DNA of 64,000 bases from NCBI RefSeq assembly GCF_003096415.1, contig NZ_QEKH01000001.1, positions 62,001 through 126,000 of the forward strand, given 5' to 3'. The notes under the pieces were generated by a model. The model saw only the letters and a list, made by a program, of their open reading frames with translations, ran no database searches and was not told the origin of the DNA. This stretch comes from Victivallis vadensis (GTDB lineage: Bacteria > Verrucomicrobiota > Lentisphaeria > Victivallales > Victivallaceae). This document shows positions 11,964-24,838 of the stretch, piece after piece. A program made the translations under genes and the position numbers. Every line of letters starts with the position of its first letter. Position 1 is the first letter of the stretch.

Positions 11964-12716
11964 ATGAACCGTTTTACGTTAATAGAACTTTTAATAGTAA
12001 TTGCTATCATCGCGATTCTAACTGCGATGCTTCTGCCGTCACTGAACAAGGCGCGGGAAAAGGCGCAAACCGCAACCTGCCTGTCCAATTTCAAAACCAT
12101 CGGTCAAGCGACGGCCATGTATCAGGGAGACAGTGATGACTATTTTCCGAATGGCGGCAATGTCGGCAACCTGACCGCAGAACCGATTCTCGAAGGGCGC
12201 TGGTATCAGAAATTGGAACGTTATACCAACAACTTCCGGGTTTTCAACTGTCCGGCCATGGTCAAAGTTGCACCGGGGCATGAAGTCGCCAACCTCAAAG
12301 GTCAGGGGGTAGCGGGCTGGAATCCGGCTTGGGGACAGATTCCGCGCGGCCGAGCCGGAGTTGGCGCCAGCTGCTGCTCCGCGTTGAATACCAGTCAGTT
12401 CGGCAATGCCAACAGCGGAGTTCCAAATTATACGGTTCGCACCAGAAACCTGATCGACCAGATTCGGACCGTATATAAAAATCCCAGGCCGACACTCGGC
12501 AACGTGGTCTATGTCTCCGACGGCACACTCGCCGTTTACAGCACGAAATTCAATGAAAACTACTCCATATTACAATTGAAATACTTCGTTCACAACAACC
12601 AGCGCAATATCCTCTATATCGACGGCCGTGCCGCCTCCAAAGGAGTCAATGACCTGCGAGGCTGTGAAAACGATAATGCGGCCGGTCCGATGTGGCGTGT
12701 CATTTACAGTAATTGA
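11964..12716 (+). CDS. Prepilin-like pseudopilin with N-terminal methylation-type segment (module 1)
   Basis: A 250-residue protein starting with the type IV pilin/type II secretion N-terminal helix: FTLIELL at 4-10, then a hydrophobic stretch to about residue 24 and LLPSLNKARE. The Glu of the +5 position is present, but the residue before Phe is Arg, not the Gly used by prepilin peptidase. The C-terminal domain contains a His followed nine residues later by Asp-Gly (HX9DG type), a feature of pseudopilins abundant in Lentisphaerae and Planctomycetes. The start lies one base after the lacI stop, behind AAAGGAG. It is followed 21 bases later by a secreted hydrolase. It may be part of an export or surface-display device for that enzyme; this is inference. 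Confidence 0.85.
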   Translation: MNRFTLIELLIVIAIIAILTAMLLPSLNKAREKAQTATCLSNFKTIGQATAMYQGDSDDYFPNGGNVGNLTAEPILEGRWYQKLERYTNNFRVFNCPAMVKVAPGHEVANLKGQGVAGWNPAWGQIPRGRAGVGASCCSALNTSQFGNANSGVPNYTVRTRNLIDQIRTVYKNPRPTLGNVVYVSDGTLAVYSTKFNENYSILQLKYFVHNNQRNILYIDGRAASKGVNDLRGCENDNAAGPMWRVIYSN

Positions 12717-12737: not shown

Positions 12738-15449
12738 ATGAAGCTCAGACTATTTTTCATGGCAATGCTGTTCTCGGCCTCAGCCGTGCTCGCGGCAATG
12801 CCGCGGCTTACGGAATCCGGCGTGGAAATCGACGGCGGCACGATGGGGAAATTCATTTTTTCCTATCCGGGTTTCAACACCGGCGGCAAAACAGTCAAGC
12901 CGAAAGTCCGGCTGGACGGCGGCAAAGCCGTACTGACCTATCTGGCCGACCGCGCCCCGCGGATCGAACTCACTCTGGACGGCGACCGGCTGCGCGGCAG
13001 CATGAAAACCGCCGCCGAAGGCAAGCTCATCTGGGATATGTTCCTGCCGATCATGTTCGGCGGCAAGGGGGAATGGGCGTTTGGACCGGACGGAAAAAGC
13101 GGCGTGTTTCCGAAAGAGCAGCCCTCCAAGCCGCATCTCGTCCAGCTCCACGGCTCCTGGTTCCGCCTCACCGATCCTCAAAGCGCCGAATCCATCGTCA
13201 TCACTCTGGACGGCAAGGGCTTCTGGCAGCTTCAGGACAACCGGGAGTGGAAGTGGAAAATCTTCCAGCTCATCCTCTACACCGATGTCTATCCCGGCTG
13301 CACGCAGGAGTTTACACTCACTTTCAGCTCGAAACAGCCCGAAGCCGTCCCGGTCCGGGTCGACCGTTTCGGCCAGCCGAAGAATCTCGACTTTCCCGGC
13401 AAGATCACCGATGAGGCGCAGTTGAAAGCCGACATCGCCGCCGACCGCGCCTATTACGGTTCGCTGCGGCCGCCCGAAACCGCGCCGTGGGGCGGCATGG
13501 CCGGAAGCCGCGGAAAATTCAATCTGAAAGCAACCGGTTTCTTCCGGCTGGACAAAGTTCAGGGGCGTGATGTGCTGGTCACGCCGGAGGGCGACCTCTT
13601 TTTCCAGCTCGGCGTCTGCACGGTCTGTCCCGGCGACGACCACACCTACATCAAGGGGCGCGAACAGATCTACGAGTGGCTGCCGAAGTATGAAAGCGAA
13701 TACAAGACCGCTTTCCGGGGACACTGGGCCACCGATTTCTCCTTCTATCTGGCGAACCGCATCCGCAAAACCGGCCGTCCCTATGAACTTGACGAATGGA
13801 AGCGCGAGCAGATCAGCCGCCTGCGCAAGTGGGGCTTCAACAGCGACGGTGCTTTCACCACATACACTCCGGTCAATGCAGCCGCTAAATTCGGCCGCAC
13901 GCCTGGACTTTTCAAAAAGGCGGGACTGGTCGGCGATATCGGCGATCCTTTCAACGAAACCTTCCGCCGGGAACTGGACGAAAATTTCGCCCCGATCGCC
14001 GGCTTCAGGGACGATCCGACCATCATCGGCTACTTCATCGCCAACGAGCAGCCCTACGGCGATGTGGCTCGCAAGGTTCCGGGCTTCGACGGCAAAACGG
14101 CGGCAAAGCGCGAGCTGGTGAAACTGCTGGAACGCAAATACGGCGCCATCGACCGCTTCAATGTCGCATGGGGCCTGAAAGCCGCCAACTTCGACGCACT
14201 GAACGACCTGCCGCTGCCGGTGCAGACCGAGGCGGCGTGGAACGACATGCAGGAATACAGCCGGCACTTCTTCGACGCCTATTTCGGGCTGATCGCCCGG
14301 ACCTTCCGCAAATACGATCCGAACCACCTGCTGCTGGGCGCCCGCTTCCTGCCCGCCAACATCAGCGTTGAAGCGGCGGTCGAAGCGTGCGGCAAATACT
14401 GTGACGTATTCAGCATCAACTACTATTCCCGTTCCATCGAACCGGAATTTCTGGAGAAGATTCACCGGCTCTCCGGCAAGCCGCTGCTGCTTTCCGAATG
14501 GAGCTTCGGCACCGCCGAGCAGGGGCTGGCGGGCGGTGTGATCGACGCCCGCAGTCAGACCGAGCGCGGCCAAGCCTACCGCAGCTACGTCGAGGAGGCG
14601 GCCGCCCTCCCCTATGTCGTCGGCAGCCAGTGGTTTTCCTACCTCGACCAGGCGTTGACCGGGCGGTACTTCCAGCATTACAACGGCGAGTGCATGAATA
14701 TCGGTCTGGTCAATGTGGCCGACCGGCCGTTCAAGGAGTTTCTGCATGAGGCGATGAAAACCAATTACCGGATCTACGACCTCAAACTCGGTGCCGTCGA
14801 ACCTTTCGTGTGGCGCGCCGCCGGCAGTGCCGGAAATCGCACTCCAAAGCGCCTCCAGATTCCGCGCGCCCTGCCCGGCCACAAAGTGGACGGCGTGAAA
14901 ACCCCGTGGCCGGGCCGTCCCTCGGAGCGGCTCGACGGCTCCTGTCTCGTCACCGGCGCCGAAACCGGCGGAACCGGAGCCGACTTCTGGCTCTGCTGGG
15001 ATGAGAAGAACCTGTATTTGTATGCCGAAGTTGTCGATTCCACCCCCGCCCGGAACAGCCGCACCGGCGCCGACCTGTGGCAGAGTGACTGCATCGAGCT
15101 TTTCACCGGCGGCGAATCTCCCGACCGTTCCGGCCCGCTGCTCTTTTCCGACCGCCAACTGCTGATCTCCGCCGCCCAGCCGAAAGGCGGCAGCTGGTTT
15201 GTGAACCAGCCGGTTCAGGCCGGAGTGCAGGCCGTGGTGATCCCGAATGCCGGAGGCTATACGCTGGAGGCGGCAATTCCGTGGGAGGCGCTGCGGATCA
15301 AGCCGGAAACCGGCCTCTCGTTCCGGTTCGACCTCGGACTCGACGACAGTGACGACGGGCCCAAACGGCTGCGCCAGTTCATGTGGAGCGGCGTGGCGAA
15401 CAACAGCGCCGACCGTTCCAACTGGGGAACGGCCACGTTAGTGGATTGA
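12738..15449 (+). CDS. Secreted glycoside hydrolase, agarase/GH50-like (clan GH-A), with C-terminal CBM9-like domain
   Basis: A 903-residue protein with a signal peptide (cleavage near residue 19-20). An N-terminal beta-rich region (about 20-230) is followed by a TIM-barrel region opening with GFFRLDKVQGRDVLVTPEGD, resembling agarase-type GH50 proteins. Candidate catalytic acids are Glu436 in IANEQP (acid/base) and the Glu of SEW near 585 (nucleophile), the clan GH-A pattern. Residues from about 705 to the end resemble a family 9 carbohydrate-binding domain (WDEKNLYLYAEV, WQSDCIELF). It acts outside the cytoplasm on a polysaccharide; agar itself is not proven. It is the last gene of module 1 and is followed by a terminator. 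Confidence 0.75.
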   Translation: MKLRLFFMAMLFSASAVLAAMPRLTESGVEIDGGTMGKFIFSYPGFNTGGKTVKPKVRLDGGKAVLTYLADRAPRIELTLDGDRLRGSMKTAAEGKLIWDMFLPIMFGGKGEWAFGPDGKSGVFPKEQPSKPHLVQLHGSWFRLTDPQSAESIVITLDGKGFWQLQDNREWKWKIFQLILYTDVYPGCTQEFTLTFSSKQPEAVPVRVDRFGQPKNLDFPGKITDEAQLKADIAADRAYYGSLRPPETAPWGGMAGSRGKFNLKATGFFRLDKVQGRDVLVTPEGDLFFQLGVCTVCPGDDHTYIKGREQIYEWLPKYESEYKTAFRGHWATDFSFYLANRIRKTGRPYELDEWKREQISRLRKWGFNSDGAFTTYTPVNAAAKFGRTPGLFKKAGLVGDIGDPFNETFRRELDENFAPIAGFRDDPTIIGYFIANEQPYGDVARKVPGFDGKTAAKRELVKLLERKYGAIDRFNVAWGLKAANFDALNDLPLPVQTEAAWNDMQEYSRHFFDAYFGLIARTFRKYDPNHLLLGARFLPANISVEAAVEACGKYCDVFSINYYSRSIEPEFLEKIHRLSGKPLLLSEWSFGTAEQGLAGGVIDARSQTERGQAYRSYVEEAAALPYVVGSQWFSYLDQALTGRYFQHYNGECMNIGLVNVADRPFKEFLHEAMKTNYRIYDLKLGAVEPFVWRAAGSAGNRTPKRLQIPRALPGHKVDGVKTPWPGRPSERLDGSCLVTGAETGGTGADFWLCWDEKNLYLYAEVVDSTPARNSRTGADLWQSDCIELFTGGESPDRSGPLLFSDRQLLISAAQPKGGSWFVNQPVQAGVQAVVIPNAGGYTLEAAIPWEALRIKPETGLSFRFDLGLDDSDDGPKRLRQFMWSGVANNSADRSNWGTATLVD

Positions 15450-15452
15450 AAC

Positions 15453-17849
15453 TCATCGCCCGGCGGATTTTGCCGGGCTTTTTTCATCATCCGCCGCCTC
15501 TCCCGGCAGGGAACGGAAATCCTGAAAAAACTTCATCACCCCTTCCTGACTCAGTTTCTCCAGATAGAACCAGTTCACCGAACGGATATGGCAGAAGGTG
15601 TAGACCACCATTTCCCCTTTGGAGTCGCGAGTGACTCTCAAGCCGAACTTGCGCTCTTTCAAGTCGTTCCACAATTCCTCATTATCCAGCTTCGCGAACG
15701 TCGGCTCTTCATCGGAAGAGCTGTAGCTGTGCAGCTTGGCGTTTGCGAAATCCCGCGTGGTGGAGACGATGATCTGCCCGGAATCATCCACGATCGCTTT
15801 TTCCAGCACATAATCCCCGCTGTTGCCGGAGGAGTGCAGCTCCTCGATCAGCTCCGACAGCGAAATATCCACAGCGCAGACACCGTCGGCCCGCCCCTTC
15901 GCCGAATACAGCGGCACGGAACAGGAAATCACCAGCCCGATTTCCGGGATGCCGTCGATGTAAGGCTTCGACCAGACGGCGCGTTCGGCCTCGGGATTTT
16001 CCGGGAATCCGTACCAGACGCGGCGGCGCGGATCGTAACCGGCGGGGAAAGCGCCGCTGGCCGGATAGGCCACATACAGACCGTCCGCAAAGCCGAACAA
16101 TACCCGGATGATCGGCGTACCGTCCAGGAAGGCCGACCGTTTGAGCCGCTCCAGATTGCCGAGGGTGACCTTCGCATTCACCGGACTCTCCAGAATGGTC
16201 TGGAGCAGCCGGGGGATAAAGCGCGAGATCGGATCAAGCCGCTCCCGGAGCCGGGCAAGATCGGTATCCGGCGTCGTGTGGTAGGCAACCGCGTCCGGCG
16301 AAATCCGGCCGTGATGAAATACCGAATCGACCAATCCGGGACAACCCTTCTCCCGGATTTCCGCCACCGGATAAAAGGCTGCCGAACTGTTGCCGTGCCC
16401 GCTTTCCTTGTGCACGTCGTAATCCAGCAGGAACTGCACATCCGCCGCCAGCGCATCGGTCATCTGCTCAAGTTTGGAGAACTGTTCATCCAGCCGGTAA
16501 CCGGCATGGGTGCTGACCGAATAGGCCATTCCCAGCGCATAGTCCCTTTTGCGCATCTCCTCGGATACCCGGAACTCCCGGTACAGCGAAAACGCCAGCG
16601 CTCCCGCGCCGATCAGCAATGCGGTCAGCATCAGGATCAGCGTCATCCGGCGGTGGATATAACACCAGCGTACCGCCTTCATCGCCGGATTGTCCGGATT
16701 TGCCCGCACCTCCAGCCCCATCAGACAGCGCCGCAGGTCCTCGGAAAGTTCGCCGATGGTCTGATACCGCTCGTCGCGGCTGGTGGCGGTCGCCTTGCGG
16801 ATCACCGCTTTCAAATCCCGGTCGATCCGGACGTGGAAGCGATGCTCCAGCGGCTCCATCCGGCCATCCCGGATATTCTCCATCAACTCCTGCACGGAGG
16901 AACCGGTGAACGCGCTTTTCAGCGTCACCGCTTCGAACAGGATCACGCCCATCGCAAAGATATCCGCCCGCTGGTCGCAAACCTCGCCGACGACCATTTC
17001 CGGAGCGAGGTAGTGGGGAGTCCCGCAGATTCCCTTCTTGCCGTCCGGGGTCTCCGCCTCCTCGGGCTTCTCTCCGATCCGCCGGGCGATCCCCCAGTCC
17101 ATGATGTAGGTTTCATGGTATTCGCCGATCATGATGTTGGCCGGTTTCAGGTCCCCGTGCATCACGTTGCGGCTGTGCGCGTATTCCAGCGCGTCGCAGA
17201 CCTTGAGCAGCACATCCAGCCGGAAATGCAGCGACTTTTCCTCATCATAGGCATTGATGCCGTCCAGCCGGTAATGGGTGACGACCTGCTCCAGATAGCT
17301 TTTGAAATTCTCGCCGTTCACCAGCTTCATCGCCAGATGCAGGCCATTCTCGCGGTCGGAGTTCAACGCATAAATCGGCACGATCGCCGGATGATCCAGC
17401 TGGGCGGTGACCCGCGCTTCCGTCAGGAAAAGGCGGCGCTGCCGCTCCCTGCCGGAAAGCTCGCGCCGCAGGGATTTGATCGCCACCAGCCGCCGCAGCC
17501 TGCGGTCGAAGCCGCTGTAGAGCTTCCCCTGTCCGCCCTCGGCGAACTCCCGGCCAAGCTCGTAATTATCTTCGATCAGGTCGAGTCGCTCTTCGTTGCC
17601 CAGAAACGCGACCTCCTGCGGAGGCCGTTTGTCGCGCAGCAATTCGATCACGGAACCGACATCCCTGCGTTTCCGGAAGGAGAAGATACGGAACCCAAAC
17701 AGCCGTTTTTTCCGTTTTCCGCCATTCTCCGCGGCAGAAGCGGCCCGGGACAGCGGTTCCAGCGGAATGGTGCGTTCTCCATCCAGCGCAATCGTGGAGG
17801 TATCATCCAGTGGAACCGTTTTTTCCGGATCGAACTCTTTTTCCGTCAT
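15453..17849 (-). CDS. Transmembrane Ser/Thr protein kinase with extracytoplasmic Cache-like sensor
   Basis: A PknB-type kinase (798 residues from the ATG at 17849; an in-frame ATG at 17894 would overlap ftsW). The head is rich in Thr-Val/Ile-Pro-Leu repeats that look phosphorylatable. The kinase domain (about 95-380) has the glycine loop EFAEGGQG, the ATP lysine Lys125, HGDLKPAN at 231-238 and APE at 282-284. The usual HRD is HGD and the DFG is DWG (251-253), so it is atypical although the catalytic Asp, Lys and Asn are kept. A transmembrane helix (402-421) leads to an outer domain of about 370 residues resembling double-Cache sensors (VWYGFP, KPYIDGIPEIGLVIS, AVDISLSEL). It is the last gene of the SEDS/PBP-dimer cluster. 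Confidence 0.88.
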   Translation of the reverse strand: MTEKEFDPEKTVPLDDTSTIALDGERTIPLEPLSRAASAAENGGKRKKRLFGFRIFSFRKRRDVGSVIELLRDKRPPQEVAFLGNEERLDLIEDNYELGREFAEGGQGKLYSGFDRRLRRLVAIKSLRRELSGRERQRRLFLTEARVTAQLDHPAIVPIYALNSDRENGLHLAMKLVNGENFKSYLEQVVTHYRLDGINAYDEEKSLHFRLDVLLKVCDALEYAHSRNVMHGDLKPANIMIGEYHETYIMDWGIARRIGEKPEEAETPDGKKGICGTPHYLAPEMVVGEVCDQRADIFAMGVILFEAVTLKSAFTGSSVQELMENIRDGRMEPLEHRFHVRIDRDLKAVIRKATATSRDERYQTIGELSEDLRRCLMGLEVRANPDNPAMKAVRWCYIHRRMTLILMLTALLIGAGALAFSLYREFRVSEEMRKRDYALGMAYSVSTHAGYRLDEQFSKLEQMTDALAADVQFLLDYDVHKESGHGNSSAAFYPVAEIREKGCPGLVDSVFHHGRISPDAVAYHTTPDTDLARLRERLDPISRFIPRLLQTILESPVNAKVTLGNLERLKRSAFLDGTPIIRVLFGFADGLYVAYPASGAFPAGYDPRRRVWYGFPENPEAERAVWSKPYIDGIPEIGLVISCSVPLYSAKGRADGVCAVDISLSELIEELHSSGNSGDYVLEKAIVDDSGQIIVSTTRDFANAKLHSYSSSDEEPTFAKLDNEELWNDLKERKFGLRVTRDSKGEMVVYTFCHIRSVNWFYLEKLSQEGVMKFFQDFRSLPGEAADDEKSPAKSAGR
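15459..15485 (+). terminator. Rho-independent terminator of glycan module 1
   Basis: CCCGGC (15459-15464) and GCCGGG (15472-15477) form a stem with a 7-base loop, followed by CTTTTTT. It begins 9 bases after the hydrolase stop and lies inside the last codons of the convergent kinase gene. It has no T-run on the other strand. Confidence 0.85.
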
Positions 17850-17871
17850 ATCCAATTTATTCCTTGTCGAA

Positions 17872-18954
17872 TCATTCCGTCTCATTGGCCGCACTCAGCG
17901 CGATGCCGAGCAGTAAACAACAGCCGAACAGCGAACTGCCGCCGTAGCTGATCAACGGCAAAGTCAGCCCGGTTGTCGGCAGCAGACATAAATTCACACT
18001 GATATGAACCAGCGTCTGGATGCCGACCAGCGCCGCCGCGCCAAGCAGGTAAAGACGCGCTTCCCGCGCCAGCCCGAAGCGGAACGCCAGCAGCAGCAGC
18101 GACGCGATCAGGACCGTAAAACAGATCCAGACCGGCAGCACGCCGCACCATCCGAGCGTCTCCGCCATCGTCGCATAGGCCGAATCATTGTAGGCCAAAG
18201 GCAAATAGGCGTTGCTCCAGACCGCTCCGCCCAGTTTCGCCCCGAACCACCCGCCGCGCGCGATCGCCAGCTCGAACTGGCGGATATGCCAGCCGCTGCC
18301 CAGCGGGTCGAGGTCAGGGTTGAACAGCCCGGTGATCCGCCGCCACGCATACGGATGGCGCCAGACGAAGAGCGCCGCCGTGCCGACGCCCCCCGCCGCC
18401 AGCAGCAGCAAATTCCGCCACGAACCGCCCGACAGGAAGTACAGCGAAGCGAAAACGGCCAGATAGATCGCCGCCGTGCCGAAGTCCGGCTGGAGCAGGA
18501 TCGGCAGCAGCCAGACCAGAGTCAGCAGCGCCCCGCCCCAGAAGCGGAGGTTGTCCGAGCGCAGCTTCGAAAACGCGATCACCAGCGTCAGCAAATAGAT
18601 TCCCTTTGCCGGCTCCGTCGGCTGAAAGTGGAAACCGCCGAGCCGGAACCAGCCGCACATCCCGTTGACCCGCACTCCGAAAAGCGGCAGCAGCAGCAAC
18701 AGCCCGAACGCCGCCAGCATCAGAATCCACGCATTGCGGCAGTAAAACCGGAACGGCACCTTCGAAGCTCCCCACATCACCGCCAGCCCGAGAATCAGGA
18801 ACATCAGCTGCTTCCCTGCCAGCAGAAACGGTTCCGAAGCATGCGACTGGCTGCTCACGATGGTCAGCAGCCCCCAGCCGCCGATCAGGAATGTCATCAG
18901 CAGCGCCAGAGTTTCAGGGCCGAGCAACGGCAGTTTGCGACTCCGTCGATTCAT
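17872..18954 (-). CDS. FtsW/RodA/SpoVE (SEDS) peptidoglycan glycosyltransferase
   Basis: A 360-residue polytopic membrane protein with about ten helices. SEDS hallmarks include FQPTEPAKG near 110, LLQPDFGTA near 153 and GLTLPLISYGGSSL near 333. SEDS proteins polymerise lipid II into glycan strands and normally work with a class B penicillin-binding protein. Here the partner gene directly upstream overlaps it by 4 bases, but that partner has lost its transpeptidase domain. The family Ser of 'QPSE' is Thr here. RodA or FtsW identity cannot be decided from the sequence alone. Confidence 0.9.
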   Translation of the reverse strand: MNRRSRKLPLLGPETLALLMTFLIGGWGLLTIVSSQSHASEPFLLAGKQLMFLILGLAVMWGASKVPFRFYCRNAWILMLAAFGLLLLLPLFGVRVNGMCGWFRLGGFHFQPTEPAKGIYLLTLVIAFSKLRSDNLRFWGGALLTLVWLLPILLQPDFGTAAIYLAVFASLYFLSGGSWRNLLLLAAGGVGTAALFVWRHPYAWRRITGLFNPDLDPLGSGWHIRQFELAIARGGWFGAKLGGAVWSNAYLPLAYNDSAYATMAETLGWCGVLPVWICFTVLIASLLLLAFRFGLAREARLYLLGAAALVGIQTLVHISVNLCLLPTTGLTLPLISYGGSSLFGCCLLLGIALSAANETE

Positions 18955-19661
18955 TGCTCCGCCTCCTCTCCGGCAGGACGCCGCATCAACGTCTCCAGCG
19001 TCACGTCAAGCCTGACGTCTTCGCCCGGAGCCGGTTCCTCCAGCAGCTTCCAACTGCCGGCGATCCAGTTGCGGCGACGGTCCAGCATCACCTCGAACCG
19101 CCCGGGCCTGCCGCGCAGCCGGGCGTCGAACTCGGCTTCCAGCCCCGATGCGCCGACCAGTTCGCCGTTTTCCCTTTTTACCGTGCCCAGACGGCTCCGC
19201 GCCGCCGGGTTGCTGACCGCGATCCGCTCCACGCGCGATTCGATGCGGAAGGCGCGGTTGTTCTTCACTACCGGCTCCAGCGCCAGCAGCTCCGCGGGAG
19301 CGAGGTCGCGCTTGAGCAGCATCGGCGTCCCCGTTCCGGCTTCCGGAATTTTCAAATCCTTCACGGTTTTCCGGACCGCGTCAAAGGTTTCATCCTCCGG
19401 CGTCATGCCTTCCGGCAGCGTCAGATAGAGGTCGAAGTAACGCTCGCTCCAGACCAGCGTGCGCCCGGCGCGGTCCAGAATCCGGCCGCGCATCGCCGGG
19501 AGCGTACCGTGAAAGCGGGCCATCTTCTCCCCTTGCGCAATATACTCCGCGCTGCGCGGGCCGGCCAGCCAGACCGCGCGTAACAATGCCGCCGCCGCCC
19601 ACGCCAGAAGCAGCGAAAAGAAAATCACGGCCCGAAACCGCCAGGAATCCCCTCCGCTCAT
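18951..19661 (-). CDS. PBP dimerisation-domain protein lacking a transpeptidase domain
   Basis: A 236-residue protein with one N-terminal membrane helix (about 10-29) and then the pedestal/dimer domain of class B penicillin-binding proteins: MRGRILDRAGRTLVWS near 56-71 and GASGLEAEFDARLRG near 172-186. A full-length PBP2 or FtsI would continue with the Ser-x-x-Lys, Ser-x-Asn and Lys-Thr-Gly active-site motifs. This gene stops after VRLDVTLETLM, just where the transpeptidase domain should start. The stop overlaps the ftsW start by 4 bases with no remnant beyond it, so this looks like a stable short form, perhaps a SEDS activator, not a sequencing frameshift. Confidence 0.8.
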   Translation of the reverse strand: MSGGDSWRFRAVIFFSLLLAWAAAALLRAVWLAGPRSAEYIAQGEKMARFHGTLPAMRGRILDRAGRTLVWSERYFDLYLTLPEGMTPEDETFDAVRKTVKDLKIPEAGTGTPMLLKRDLAPAELLALEPVVKNNRAFRIESRVERIAVSNPAARSRLGTVKRENGELVGASGLEAEFDARLRGRPGRFEVMLDRRRNWIAGSWKLLEEPAPGEDVRLDVTLETLMRRPAGEEAEQ

Positions 19662-19746
19662 CGTCCTCCTCCCGTCACTTTACGCACCGTCACCGGCGGA
19701 ACCGGCAGCATCCAGCGTCCGCCCCCTCCGCCGCCATCACTCTCCG

Positions 19747-21402
19747 TCACGGTCTGTTTGCATATCCCCGGCTGTGAACATGGCCGCCGGCCTGGTGCAG
19801 CAATTTCGCCAGCAGCGCGTAATTGAGCGGGAAGGTCATCCCCCACGCCCTCCCCAGTTCACGCAGTTGCCGGAACCGCTCTTCAGAGAGGCGCGGCACC
19901 ACCACCACCGCCGGAACCTCACGCCGCCCGGCCGCCCGGCGCAGCTGGACGACCAGCTCCACCGGATCGCAGGTGCGGAAAGGAGCCACCAGCACGAAAC
20001 CGTCGTAATCCCCCTGCTCCGCCTCCTTCTGCATCGCCTCGGCTGTATCCACTGCCGTCACCGAGATCAGCTCCGCCCCGAGAATCCGTTTCAAAATAAA
20101 AACCTCGTCGGTATTGTCGTCGCCCAGCAGGATTTTCATCGGCGTACAGCTTCCCTCCGGCTCCTCAGAGCTGCCGTCCGGCTCCGACTGGCTCGACCGG
20201 CTGCTGCGCCAGTTGCCGGCCCGATTTTCAGCGGAATCGACCGTGCAGTCCTTTTCATCCAGTTCCAGCCGCAGGATGGAATACGCTTCCGGAGTACTCT
20301 CGACTTCGAGGCGGCAGCCGATTCTGGTCGCGATATCGCCGACGAAGCAGAGCCCCAGCACGCCGAGACTCTCCGAAGTCGGGTAAAGCATCGACGGATC
20401 GGCGTTTTTGCGGTGTTCCAGATAGATCCGGGCCAGCTCCTCGCGGCAGACGCCGTGATGGCTGTCGCGAACCTCGAAAATCACCCGGTGACGCTCCGAA
20501 TAACACGAGAGCACCACCGTTTCCCCCGGAGCCGACGCCCGGGCGACAGCCCGGATCAGGATGTTCATCAACTGGAACAGCAGCTCCCGGTCGGTCCGCA
20601 CTCCCTGCGGCGCACTGGAGGAAAAATGGTTGACCAGCGTCATTTCGCGCGCCTGAAGCGACAGGGTGCTGCGCTCCGTCAGCTCCCGCAGGAAATCCGC
20701 CGTATTGAAAGATTCCAGATGGAGCACGCTCCATCGCTCGCGCGACAGCGAACCGATGTCGTCCATCCGGTCCACCCGCCGCGACAACGAACCGATCCGC
20801 TTGCCGATCACATCCAGAATGCGCAACTCCTCGCCGTCCGGTGTACGCCCCTCCTCGATCCCCTGCTTCAGCACCAGCGCCATCCCCTTGATGATGCTCA
20901 AAGGCTGCCGCAGCTCCGGCAGCATTCCGGTCAGGATGCGCAGCTGCAGCAGGTCGTGCCGCTCGATTTCGCGCTTCACCTCGGCTTCGCGCGCGAGGCT
21001 CAGCTTGAGCTTGCCCTGCAGATTCTGCTGCCGGTCCCGCAGGAAGTTCAGCGCGGCGTGCAGCGAACCGATTTCGTCGGCCTCCTGCTCGATCGCCGCC
21101 AACGGCTGGGGCATATCGCCGCCCGCGAGATGGTCGGTGAATTCCGCCATCCGCCGGACCGGTTCGACCACATTCTTCAGCAGTCGCAGGCACCCCAGCA
21201 TCATGGTTCCGAACACTCCCAGCAGGCCGATCAGGGTCACCAGCGGCAGCGCGTCGCCGAACCGCAGCTCCGTAACGCCGAAAATTCCGCCGAAGAACCG
21301 GACCGTCTCACTGCCGCCGAAAATAAACAGCGGAATCACGGCAAACGCGGAAAAAAATCCCGCGACACAAAGAAAGGTGATGACTTTTTTTCTGATATTC
21401 AT
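19747..21402 (-). CDS. Degenerate histidine-kinase/receiver membrane protein (pseudo two-component scaffold)
   Basis: A 551-residue protein from the ATG at 21402 (AAGGCAGG just upstream; an ATG at 21486 would overlap the kinase gene by 50 bases). Two membrane helices (about 5-28 and 52-75) precede a HAMP-like segment and a helical HisKA-like region. In the H-box PELRQPLSIIKG (162-173), the phospho-accepting His is Pro162. The ATPase-like domain (about 265-385) has DSHHGV in place of DxGxG. A serine-rich linker leads to a receiver-like domain (422-551) that keeps acidic GDD (427-429) but has Val472/Ala473 where the phospho-Asp belongs, and Phe replaces the conserved Lys. It therefore probably does not do phosphotransfer but may scaffold or sense. 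Confidence 0.82.
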   Translation of the reverse strand: MNIRKKVITFLCVAGFFSAFAVIPLFIFGGSETVRFFGGIFGVTELRFGDALPLVTLIGLLGVFGTMMLGCLRLLKNVVEPVRRMAEFTDHLAGGDMPQPLAAIEQEADEIGSLHAALNFLRDRQQNLQGKLKLSLAREAEVKREIERHDLLQLRILTGMLPELRQPLSIIKGMALVLKQGIEEGRTPDGEELRILDVIGKRIGSLSRRVDRMDDIGSLSRERWSVLHLESFNTADFLRELTERSTLSLQAREMTLVNHFSSSAPQGVRTDRELLFQLMNILIRAVARASAPGETVVLSCYSERHRVIFEVRDSHHGVCREELARIYLEHRKNADPSMLYPTSESLGVLGLCFVGDIATRIGCRLEVESTPEAYSILRLELDEKDCTVDSAENRAGNWRSSRSSQSEPDGSSEEPEGSCTPMKILLGDDNTDEVFILKRILGAELISVTAVDTAEAMQKEAEQGDYDGFVLVAPFRTCDPVELVVQLRRAAGRREVPAVVVVPRLSEERFRQLRELGRAWGMTFPLNYALLAKLLHQAGGHVHSRGYANRP

Positions 21403-21436
21403 ATCCTGCCTTGGTTTCAATTCCCGAGGGTATTCT

Positions 21437-22429
21437 TCACCGCCTGAACCAGCCGGAAAGTTTCCGGACCAATCCTTCGCCTTCATCTTTTCCTTCCGTT
21501 TCCGGCACCGCCGCCAGTTTCAGCCCGGCGATGATCTCCCGGTATTCGGGACGCTGTTCGGGCAGATAGCTGAGCATCCGGCCGACCAGCGCCGAAAACT
21601 CCGGCGTCACTTGCTTATTCACCTTGCACAGCTCCGGGTAATGCGGATTCGCGCGCCGGTCGAGCAACTCCTCCGGCGTTCCCTTCACGCCGAACGGCAC
21701 CAGCTTCGTCATCGCCTCGTAAATCGTCACGCCGAGGCTGAAAATATCGCCGCGGTAATCCTCGCCGCCGTAAAGCAGCCGCTCCGGGCTTACATAGCCG
21801 GGGCTGGCCCAGCCGTCGCACAGCGTCAACGCATCTCCGGTTTCCCGGACGTCCGCCAGGTCGAAATCCCCCAGCTTCGCCTCCCATTCCGAGGTCAACA
21901 GGATATTGCCCGGCTTGATGTCGTGATGCACGACGCTCTGCTGCCGCAGCGCAAACTCCAGCCCTTCCGCGATATTGGCCATCCAGCCGGCGGTCATCGA
22001 AACGTCGGCCAGGCCGTCCCGCCGGAGCAGCTCCTCGACGCTGCCGTTCTCCATATAACGCATCACCAGAAACGGCCGGCCTTCGGCCACGCCGCAGTTA
22101 TAGATCGGAATCACGCCGGGGTGGTTGATCTTCGCGACCAGCTTCGCTTCTTCCAGAAACCGCCGCCCGCCGTCATTTTCTTCGCTCTCCTCGTTCAGGA
22201 TTTTGACCGCGACGCGGCGCGCCAACTCCGGCTCCAGCGCCCGGTAGACTTTGGACATGCCGCCGATGCCGCAAACCTTCTCCAGCAGATAGCGGTCGAA
22301 CCGCTTCGGGACCCGGAGCACGGTGCCGCACTCCGGGCACTCCACATGGCTGAACGGCTCCAGGTCGGTCACGTCCAGCTTCGCGTGGCAGTTCCGGCAG
22401 AACACCTTGATCGCATCCTGTTGCGCCAT
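21437..22429 (-). CDS. Ser/Thr protein kinase with N-terminal zinc ribbon
   Basis: A 330-residue soluble protein starting at the ATG at 22429 (GGCGGGG upstream; a GTG three codons earlier is possible). The head has a zinc ribbon (Cys11, Cys14, Cys31, Cys34). The kinase domain has the loop GIGGMSKVY, Lys76, a Glu in the C helix (EEAKLV), VVHHDIKPGN at 166-175 (HHD in place of HRD) and GDFD at 187-190 in place of DFG. The C-terminus ends in a basic tail. No transmembrane helix is seen. It lies between a WalJ-like gene and the pseudo-histidine kinase, so it may phosphorylate members of the envelope cluster. Confidence 0.87.
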   Translation of the reverse strand: MAQQDAIKVFCRNCHAKLDVTDLEPFSHVECPECGTVLRVPKRFDRYLLEKVCGIGGMSKVYRALEPELARRVAVKILNEESEENDGGRRFLEEAKLVAKINHPGVIPIYNCGVAEGRPFLVMRYMENGSVEELLRRDGLADVSMTAGWMANIAEGLEFALRQQSVVHHDIKPGNILLTSEWEAKLGDFDLADVRETGDALTLCDGWASPGYVSPERLLYGGEDYRGDIFSLGVTIYEAMTKLVPFGVKGTPEELLDRRANPHYPELCKVNKQVTPEFSALVGRMLSYLPEQRPEYREIIAGLKLAAVPETEGKDEGEGLVRKLSGWFRR

Positions 22430-22431
22430 GC

Positions 22432-23241
22432 CTAACACCCCGCCTTCAGCGCCGGCAGCTCCGGCTCCAGTTCAAAGGTTCCGAGCGGATGGTCCTGCTC
22501 GATGATCCCGAATTCGATATCGGTACGCCCCAGCTCAGCGAGGCGGCGCTCGAACAGCGGCCGCACGATTTCAATTGAGTTGCACTCGCTGCTCAGGTGA
22601 GCCAGCAGCAGCAACTGCGTGCGCGGAGTCAGCAGATAGTCCAGCGCCGCGCAGGCCGCCATGTTGTCGAGGTGACCGTGCCGCCCCAGAATCCGCCGTT
22701 TCAGATAGAGCTGCCGGTCGGAATCGCGCAGCATCTGCGCATCGTAATTGCTCTCCAGCACCAGCGCGTCGCAGTCGCTGAGCCGCTGCATCGCCAGCAT
22801 ATTGATATCGCCGAGGTCGGTCGCGATGCCGATCTTCAGGCCTTCGCGCCGGATCACGAAGCCGACCGGGTTGACCGCGTCGTGCTGAACCGCGAACGGC
22901 TCCACCCCGAAGCCCCCGATCTGGAACTCCCCGCCCGGCTCGAACTCCAACACCCGCACCGGCAGCTTGCCTTTCTTGCGCAGGAAGTTCGCGGTCAGCG
23001 AGGAGGTGCATAAGGGGATGTCGAATTCGTCGCAGAACACCCGGCATCCTTTGGAATGGTCGTCGTGTTCGTGGGTCAGCAGCGCCGCCTTGATCTCCTC
23101 GGCATTAAGACCGAGAGTCCGCAGCCGGCAACAGGTCTCCTTTCTGGAAAAACCGACATCCACGATAATCGACCCGTCCCCGCAGGAGAGGACCAGCGCA
23201 TTGCCTTTGCTGCCGCTGCCCAGCGCACTCAATCTGACCAT
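22432..23241 (-). CDS. WalJ/YycJ-like metallo-beta-lactamase-fold hydrolase
   Basis: A 269-residue MBL-fold protein. The metal motif THEHDDHSKG carries His57, His59, Asp61 and His62; further likely ligands are the His of AVQHD and the Asp of ATDLGD. The start ALGSGSKGNA matches the YycJ/WalJ branch, which in Firmicutes is encoded with the WalRK cell-wall two-component system and acts as a DNA exonuclease or processing enzyme. Here it heads a cluster with SEDS, PBP-dimer and protein-kinase genes, echoing that linkage. It is divergent from rpoN. The enzymatic substrate is not known. Confidence 0.85.
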   Translation of the reverse strand: MVRLSALGSGSKGNALVLSCGDGSIIVDVGFSRKETCCRLRTLGLNAEEIKAALLTHEHDDHSKGCRVFCDEFDIPLCTSSLTANFLRKKGKLPVRVLEFEPGGEFQIGGFGVEPFAVQHDAVNPVGFVIRREGLKIGIATDLGDINMLAMQRLSDCDALVLESNYDAQMLRDSDRQLYLKRRILGRHGHLDNMAACAALDYLLTPRTQLLLLAHLSSECNSIEIVRPLFERRLAELGRTDIEFGIIEQDHPLGTFELEPELPALKAGC

Positions 23242-23419: not shown

Positions 23420-24838
23420 ATGCCGGGAAATCAGCAAACATTATCCACCACACTTCGCCAGGAACAGCAGCTTTCCGCCCGCCAGCTTCAGTCGCTGGAG
23501 CTTCTGAATCTGCCCGCCCTCGAACTCGAAGAACGGCTCACCCAGGAGCTGGCCGCCAATCCGCTGCTGGAAGCCGAAGTGCAGTCCGAACCCGTGGAAC
23601 TTCCCGCGCAGCCGGAAGCTCCCGAAAAGGAAGATGAAAGCACGCTCGACGAGCGCGCTGTGGAAAACGAGGAGTGGGCCGACGAACTGCCGATGCCGCC
23701 CGGCACCGGGGAAGCCGGCTTCACCAACGAAGAAAACGACTTCATGCTCAACTCGCTCTCCGACGCCCCGACGCTGCAGGAACAGCTGTTTTCGGAACTG
23801 GCGACCTGTGATGCGACGCCCGAAGTCCGGCGGCTGGCGGAGGAGATCATCGGCTCGATCGACGACACCGGTTATTTCCGCAGCACTCCCGCCGACCTGG
23901 CGATGAGTGAAAACGCCGAGCTGGCCGACGCCGAAGCCGCACTGAAACTCGTGCAGAGTTTCGATCCGCCCGGCGTCGGCTGCCGCGACCTTGCCGAATG
24001 CCTGAAGCTGCAGCTGGAGCGCACCGGAGAACTGACGCCGCTCTACCGGGAAATTCTCGACCATCACCTTGAGGAGATCGCCCGCAACCACCTGCCGCAA
24101 CTGGCCCGGACGCTTCGCATATCACTGGAGGAATTGAACCGGTGCCTTGCACGGCTGCGGCGGCTGAATCCCTATCCGGGGTCGGCGCTGGCGCCGGAAC
24201 ACGCCGATTTCGTAATGCCCGAGGTGTCGATTGTGCGCGGAGCCGACGGAGAATACGAGGTGGCGCCCCGCCGCAACGGCATGCCGCGGCTCTTTCTGGC
24301 CGAACGGTATCTGAAGCTGCTGGAAACCCCGGACCTGCCGACGGCGGACAAGGCGTATCTGCGCGACAAGCTCCAGCAGGCCCGGGAGCTGATGCGCGCG
24401 CTCGACCTGCGCCAGAGCACCATCGTCCGCATCGCGGGCGTGATCGTCGCGACCCAGCGCGACTTCCTCGACAACGGCGTGGCGGCGCTGAAGCCGCTGA
24501 CCATGAAACAGGCGGGCGAAATGCTCGAACTGCACGAAACCACCGTCAGCCGGGCGGTAGCCAACAAGTATGTGGAGACGCCGCAGGGGATTTTTCCATT
24601 CAAGTTCTTTTTCACCGCCGGTTTCACCGGGGAGGACGGCACCTCCGTCTCCAACCGGGCCGTGATGGAGAAGATCAAAGAACTGATCGACAAGGAGAAT
24701 CCGGCCAAGCCCCTCTCCGACGAACAGCTCGCCCAGATGCTGAAAGCCGGGGGCCTCGCGGTCGCCCGGCGCACCGTCGCCAAGTACCGCGAAGGGATGA
24801 ACATCCCCTCATCGTCGCTGCGCCGCAAGCACATGTGA
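23420..24838 (+). CDS. rpoN: RNA polymerase sigma-54 factor
   Basis: A 472-residue sigma-54. Region I (residues 5-50) is the glutamine/leucine-rich activator-contact segment, region II is acidic (about 55-90), and the core-binding domain follows. The DNA-binding part has the helix-turn-helix around LHETTVSRAVANKY and the RpoN box ARRTVAKYRE at 449-458. It directs polymerase to -24/-12 promoters in combination with enhancer-binding ATPases, none of which is in this window. The start is fixed by region I, although no Shine-Dalgarno sequence precedes it. Its usual neighbour in proteobacteria, ptsN, lies separately (47830-48315). Confidence 0.97.
   Translation: MPGNQQTLSTTLRQEQQLSARQLQSLELLNLPALELEERLTQELAANPLLEAEVQSEPVELPAQPEAPEKEDESTLDERAVENEEWADELPMPPGTGEAGFTNEENDFMLNSLSDAPTLQEQLFSELATCDATPEVRRLAEEIIGSIDDTGYFRSTPADLAMSENAELADAEAALKLVQSFDPPGVGCRDLAECLKLQLERTGELTPLYREILDHHLEEIARNHLPQLARTLRISLEELNRCLARLRRLNPYPGSALAPEHADFVMPEVSIVRGADGEYEVAPRRNGMPRLFLAERYLKLLETPDLPTADKAYLRDKLQQARELMRALDLRQSTIVRIAGVIVATQRDFLDNGVAALKPLTMKQAGEMLELHETTVSRAVANKYVETPQGIFPFKFFFTAGFTGEDGTSVSNRAVMEKIKELIDKENPAKPLSDEQLAQMLKAGGLAVARRTVAKYREGMNIPSSSLRRKHM

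Follow-up and report, generated by a model that had tools for sequence, protein, structure and literature searches.

A third SEDS polymerase gene paired with a class B PBP gene lacking the transpeptidase domain is conserved across Lentisphaeria and probably encodes a peptidoglycan polymerase

The window analyzed here is a stretch of 64,000 nucleotides from Victivallis vadensis (contig NZ_QEKH01000001.1, positions 62,001 to 126,000). Its ORF list confirms six minus-strand ORFs between positions 15453 and 23241, with short gaps or overlaps, each at the coordinates given in the preliminary description, and the domains proposed there are all backed by Pfam (the Cache match is below threshold, and those for histidine kinase and receiver are weak). 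On the minus strand, the block begins with a WalJ/YycJ-like hydrolase of metallo-beta-lactamase fold (MBL; 22432..23241; Lactamase_B_2, with the motif HxHxDH in the translation), followed by K2, a Hanks-type Ser/Thr kinase with an N-terminal, LysW-like zinc ribbon (21437..22438; Pkinase E = 5e-44), and by a pseudo-histidine kinase, or pseudo-HK (19747..21486), which has two transmembrane (TM) helices and HAMP, DHp-like, ATPase-like, and receiver-like regions (weak Pfam matches to HAMP, HisKA, HATPase_c, and receiver). Next on the same strand are the 236-aa pedestal protein (DIM; 18951..19661), consisting of a TM helix and a PBP dimerization/pedestal domain (PBP_dimer, PF03717, 52 bits), and the 360-aa SEDS3 (17872..18954), a third member of the SEDS family of glycan polymerases, the two genes sharing a 4-bp overlap. 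The last gene encodes K1, a Ser/Thr kinase with one TM helix and a periplasmic Cache-like sensor (15453..17894, minus strand; Pkinase E = 4e-38, dCache below threshold).

A divergent rpoN-like gene (23420..24838, plus strand) marks the upstream border of the WalJ-K2-pseudo-HK operon that is conserved in the genus. The true start of the pseudo-HK is probably M29 (~21402) and not 21486, because relatives begin there, and with this start the overlap with the K2 gene disappears. Scanning for promoters and terminators gave matches no more numerous than in shuffled sequences. Elsewhere in the window, a pseudopilin-like gene (11964-12716) is closely followed by a 903-aa ORF (12738-15449).

With respect to the conservation of this arrangement, our sample comprised 61 genomes of the order, from which 50 neighborhoods of the dimer-only protein were fetched, and the whole six-gene arrangement was seen in this genome only. 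A SEDS gene adjoins the pedestal gene in 45 of the 50 neighborhoods, frequently with a 4-bp overlap, and since the pair recurs in dozens of genomes, the pairing exceeds chance; the FtsW/RodA-like polymerase and PBP-dimer protein noted in the preliminary description are therefore a real pair. The remaining genes are associated with this pair to very different extents: the pseudo-HK gene precedes the pedestal gene in 12 other neighborhoods, across genera, the WalJ and K2 genes adjoin the pair within the genus only (congeners L034, L035, and L061), and K1 is found beside it here and in none of the other neighborhoods. Most other families have no WalJ, kinase, or pseudo-HK gene near the pair. The proposed check of gene order in relatives thus gives a divided answer, positive for pedestal-SEDS3 and negative for the six genes as a unit. 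In five neighborhoods (L034, L036, L037, L041, and L145), an MFS-type transporter gene directly follows the pseudo-HK gene, preceding the pedestal gene where the latter is present, and in seven others (L047-L050, L054, L056, and L066) a conserved signal-peptide-like protein of ~220 aa, sometimes in two copies, precedes pedestal-SEDS3.

The order WalJ-K2-pseudo-HK is kept in eight of the nine genomes of the genus, with or without SEDS3, and the WalJ-like gene has one orthologue per genome in all nine. In five sister species (G002, G003, G004, G005, and G008), the rpoN / WalJ-K2-pseudo-HK order is intact and pedestal and SEDS3 are missing after the pseudo-HK gene, indicating that the signaling trio is inherited separately and does not depend on pedestal-SEDS3; the ninth genome of the genus (L061) has WalJ-K2 together with the pair and lacks the pseudo-HK. 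The six-gene stretch therefore consists of two separately inherited blocks and one kinase seen only here. We accordingly consider it quite unlikely that SEDS3-pedestal is under the joint control, through phosphorylation and scaffolding, of the WalJ-like hydrolase, the two Ser/Thr kinases, and the pseudo-HK. The compact, partly overlapping genes on one strand here and the pseudo-HK link that recurs across genera would fit such a system, but the trio without the pair in the five sister species, the pair without the pseudo-HK in L061, the absence of all these genes near the pair in most other families, and the finding of K1 beside the pair in this neighborhood only all argue against it. The preliminary description's single envelope-control system of six genes does not survive these comparisons; direct regulation of the pair by the WalJ, kinase, or pseudo-HK proteins is possible, and co-inheritance gives it no support.

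The signaling proteins themselves also depart from the systems they resemble. In an H-box alignment, the phospho-acceptor His is absent from 13 of 13 pseudo-HK relatives; the N-box and G1-box are degenerate, and the receiver Asp is not seen in the aligned motif. The pseudo-HK thus shows neither the phospho-His nor the intact ATP-binding boxes and receiver Asp of a hybrid sensor histidine kinase, as was claimed for a receiver-fused protein without phospho-sites. Its AF2 model (pLDDT 75) resembles histidine kinase cores, with Foldseek ranking DivL first and HK853 next. DivL of Caulobacter, the closest solved fold, and other pseudo-histidine kinases likewise lack the phospho-His, whereas the domain set found here (two TM helices, HAMP, and a C-terminal degenerate receiver) differs from that of DivL. 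An analogy had also been drawn with wall control by WalRK-WalJ and PASTA kinases in Firmicutes, with which the locus shares an operon combining Ser/Thr kinases with an MBL protein of the YycJ/WalJ type. This analogy proves weak, since Pfam finds no PASTA domain in the locus (K1 has Cache and K2 a zinc ribbon), a search limited to the locus finds no phosphorylatable WalK, and the trio is inherited independently of the wall polymerase. Furthermore, the YycJ/WalJ protein of Bacillus anthracis is reported to act as an exonuclease in mismatch repair (PMC4801191), and given this DNA-repair role, a wall role is not to be assumed.

Turning to the conserved pair, SEDS3 matches the SEDS family profile PF01098 (FTSW_RODA_SPOVE) with 211 bits against a curated cut-off of 26.4 and is one of three SEDS genes in this genome. 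In a tree with Pseudomonas aeruginosa FtsW, Escherichia coli RodA, and Thermus thermophilus RodA as references, SEDS3 and 44 others form a third monophyletic clade (support 100/100) outside the FtsW and RodA clades, and tree placement identifies the true FtsW of this genome on contig C27 (L095) and the true RodA on contig C24 (L094). SEDS3 is an orthologue of neither, as its scores likewise fall below the NCBIfam cut-offs for ftsW (223 versus 337.5 bits) and rodA (203 versus 336.7 bits). The alignment places its catalytic Asp at D257, and the equivalents of E. coli FtsW W138, Q147, P196, R246, D297, G371, G380, and G381 are invariant in all 45 SEDS3 proteins; these columns are among the residues needed for E. 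coli FtsW function (PMC8765783) and are also common to RodA.

Around the catalytic Asp, SEDS3 proteins carry the class-specific signatures NGMxGW and LPLxxSDS, and they depart from E. coli FtsW at two positions that matter there (Met for A135 and Gly for R137), with further changes nearby (Ser for F298 and Leu for the Glu of LPE). Because of these departures, the substrate or regulation of SEDS3 may differ from that of FtsW. A stronger version of this idea, namely, that SEDS3 polymerizes or transfers a lipid-linked substrate other than standard lipid II, such as a special glycan, would agree with the two signatures and with the lack of a coupled transpeptidase, but we regard it as very unlikely, given that every core SEDS catalytic column is kept and that the association with an mraZ-type gene points to division or the cell wall.

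The pedestal protein aligns to residues 14-225 of the 579 residues of FtsI and ends where the transpeptidase domain starts, and in 50 of 50 fetched relatives the ORF likewise ends at this domain border. Of the parts of a class B PBP, the TM helix and pedestal/dimerization domain are present and the transpeptidase domain with its active-site Ser is absent. The single-chain AF2 model (pLDDT 93) matches class B PBPs, the best Foldseek match being PBP2 of the RodA-PBP2 complex (6pl5; E = 2.6e-14). A class B PBP split in two, with the transpeptidase encoded elsewhere and joining the pedestal in trans, could account for this truncation, and a 298-aa ORF with a transpeptidase-like domain is indeed present in this genome (G000:C15:113640-114242; its length is like that of class D beta-lactamases, an identity that is a guess). 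The same ORF type, however, occurs in pedestal-less G005, and seven genomes with the pedestal (G006, G007, G022, G037, G039, G046, and G053) have only two transpeptidases, full-length FtsI and PBP2. Across the genomes of the order, the number of transpeptidase-domain proteins does not vary with the presence of the pedestal gene, and our transpeptidase search of these genomes revealed no extra transpeptidase that matches its distribution. The split protein is therefore largely refuted, and we consider it extremely improbable.

In other families and orders, the pair lies in the order mraZ2, small single-TM protein, pedestal, SEDS3, which is the ancestral operon and resembles a miniature dcw cluster; MraZ was identified by PF02381. 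The gene of the small protein stands in the place of ftsL, a resemblance to FtsL in position only. Within the family to which the window belongs, mraZ2 is located away from the pair, in many cases accompanied by the small gene, and in this genome it is found on contig C4 at ~42.11-42.83 kb (~42.00-42.83 kb, or L084:9002-9830, with the upstream repeats described next), the small single-TM gene overlapping its end. Four direct repeats of TGG-N7, candidate MraZ-type boxes, precede most mraZ2 genes in the class, and in this genome the four-unit pattern occurs once genome-wide, at mraZ2. MraZ2 may control the ancestral operon. Direct control of the window operon by MraZ2 was rejected, as the window contains no TGG-N7 box array. 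By our own per-genome assignment of MraZ2, 47 of the 51 pedestal-bearing genomes have mraZ2, versus 2 of the 10 pedestal-less ones (Fisher P = 7e-6, shared ancestry ignored). Two loci (L088 and L089, in G043 and G055) retain MraZ2 and the box array in the absence of pedestal and SEDS3 genes.

The dimer-only protein is present in 51 of the 61 genomes of the order and, by profile search, in at least 86 of 149 genomes of the class Lentisphaeria (E ≤ 1e-20 and an open frame of ≤388 aa), and for the rest of the phylum the matches listed for this profile are full-length frames only, ~570 aa or longer. Presence of the pedestal coincides with a third SEDS gene: none of the 10 dimer-less genomes has more than two SEDS, and 45 of the 51 dimer-bearing genomes have at least three (Fisher P = 9e-8, phylogeny ignored), the six exceptions being G014, G041, G047, G048, G054, and G059. 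The module is not essential, since several lineages do without it. Scanning genome_contigs with closer SEDS3 proteins returned Lentisphaerota-type loci at 38 to 84% identity before dropping to ordinary SEDS at ~33%, and a collection scan with P0003 gave no confirmed match. One contig labeled Candidatus Paceibacterota (L154; JAIPIM010000078.1) carries a Lentisphaeria-type SEDS3 at 38% identity, which may reflect a label error or contamination.

This dispensability, together with the lost transpeptidase and the dcw-like ancestral operon with its mraZ2, would also be expected of a regulatory decoy, in which pedestal and SEDS3 make no glycan and compete with FtsI and FtsW for divisome partners or lipid II, thereby tuning division; strict invariance of the active-site columns in 45 divergent SEDS3 proteins would be surprising in a catalytically dead protein, however, and we judge such a decoy unlikely. 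The explanation that we favor, and hold to be probably correct, is that the core of the locus is a class-wide third SEDS-bPBP-type peptidoglycan polymerase of Lentisphaeria, with the class B PBP reduced to its activating part. SEDS3 retains the glycosyltransferase active site, and the pedestal protein still has the two elements, membrane helix and pedestal domain, by which SEDS is bound and activated in RodA-PBP2 and FtsW-FtsI, pairs in which the pedestal activates the polymerase via extracellular loop 4 (ECL4; PMC8078798). The two proteins would form a complex, and as the partner has no transpeptidase, polymerization by SEDS3 is expected to be uncoupled from cross-linking: glycan strands would be made without built-in cross-linking, which would be left to other enzymes. 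The small single-TM protein at the ftsL position may be a third subunit or an activator. In T. thermophilus, transpeptidase-domain motion is tied to activation (PMC10257715), and the truncated partner may therefore be constitutively permissive or be controlled by the small protein. The most probable reading is that SEDS3 genuinely polymerizes glycan, is activated by a partner reduced to the pedestal, and works without coupling to cross-linking.

Several known systems share parts of this design. Like FtsW-FtsI and RodA-PBP2, the pair combines a SEDS protein and an adjoining membrane-anchored PBP pedestal partner with the same active-site residues and dcw-like neighbors (mraZ), but its partner lacks the transpeptidase domain, SEDS3 falls in its own clade below the equivalog cut-offs, and both canonical pairs are also present in this genome. 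FtsW2 and RodA2 of Enterococcus faecalis, shown to be glycosyltransferases and not essential, are likewise extra SEDS beside FtsW and RodA, yet their bPBP partners are full-length, they fall into the FtsW or RodA groups, and no report describes one with a partner lacking the transpeptidase (PMC12724132). In Clostridioides difficile, a dcw-encoded SEDS/bPBP pair has been repurposed for sporulation (PMC10693644), similarly a dcw-type pair diverted to a special role, whereas here full FtsW/FtsI is retained and it is the extra pair that has lost the transpeptidase. We found no paper describing this cluster or a SEDS partner without a transpeptidase, and prior mention in older PVC dcw-cluster literature is possible. 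The claim that no system of such composition had been described is thus upheld, as far as we found, for the SEDS/PBP-dimer pair and for the non-phosphorylatable histidine kinase/receiver protein, but not for the six genes, which are not one system.

A search for GT51 (class A PBP, PF00912) found it in only 4 of the 61 genomes of the order, this genome included, against 10 of 14 control genomes, and this scarcity leaves SEDS proteins as the only glycan polymerases known in the order, or at least the main ones. In the searched genomes of genus g40 (family f4), GT51 is present and the PBP-dimer matches are full-length only. A general mutual exclusion of pedestal and class A PBP was dropped, because most pedestal-less genomes elsewhere in the order also lack GT51, and for the same reason, replacement of class A PBPs by SEDS3 is not demonstrated. 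We therefore advance only tentatively, as a somewhat doubtful possibility, that Lentisphaeria use SEDS3 with its pedestal-only activator and the small FtsL-position protein, under their own MraZ, as a stand-alone transpeptidase-free glycan polymerase in the role that class A PBPs, nearly all lost in this order, play elsewhere.

The locus bears on two questions. The first is what minimum part of a class B PBP can activate a SEDS polymerase, and the second is whether any cell makes glycan with SEDS proteins in a way not coupled to cross-linking. A pedestal-only partner that occurs naturally and has been conserved since ancient times would separate activation from transpeptidation and offers a ready test system. 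The class as a whole, made up of gut-type bacteria, possesses a duplicated miniature dcw cluster, and wall construction in one of its orders proceeds nearly without class A PBPs.
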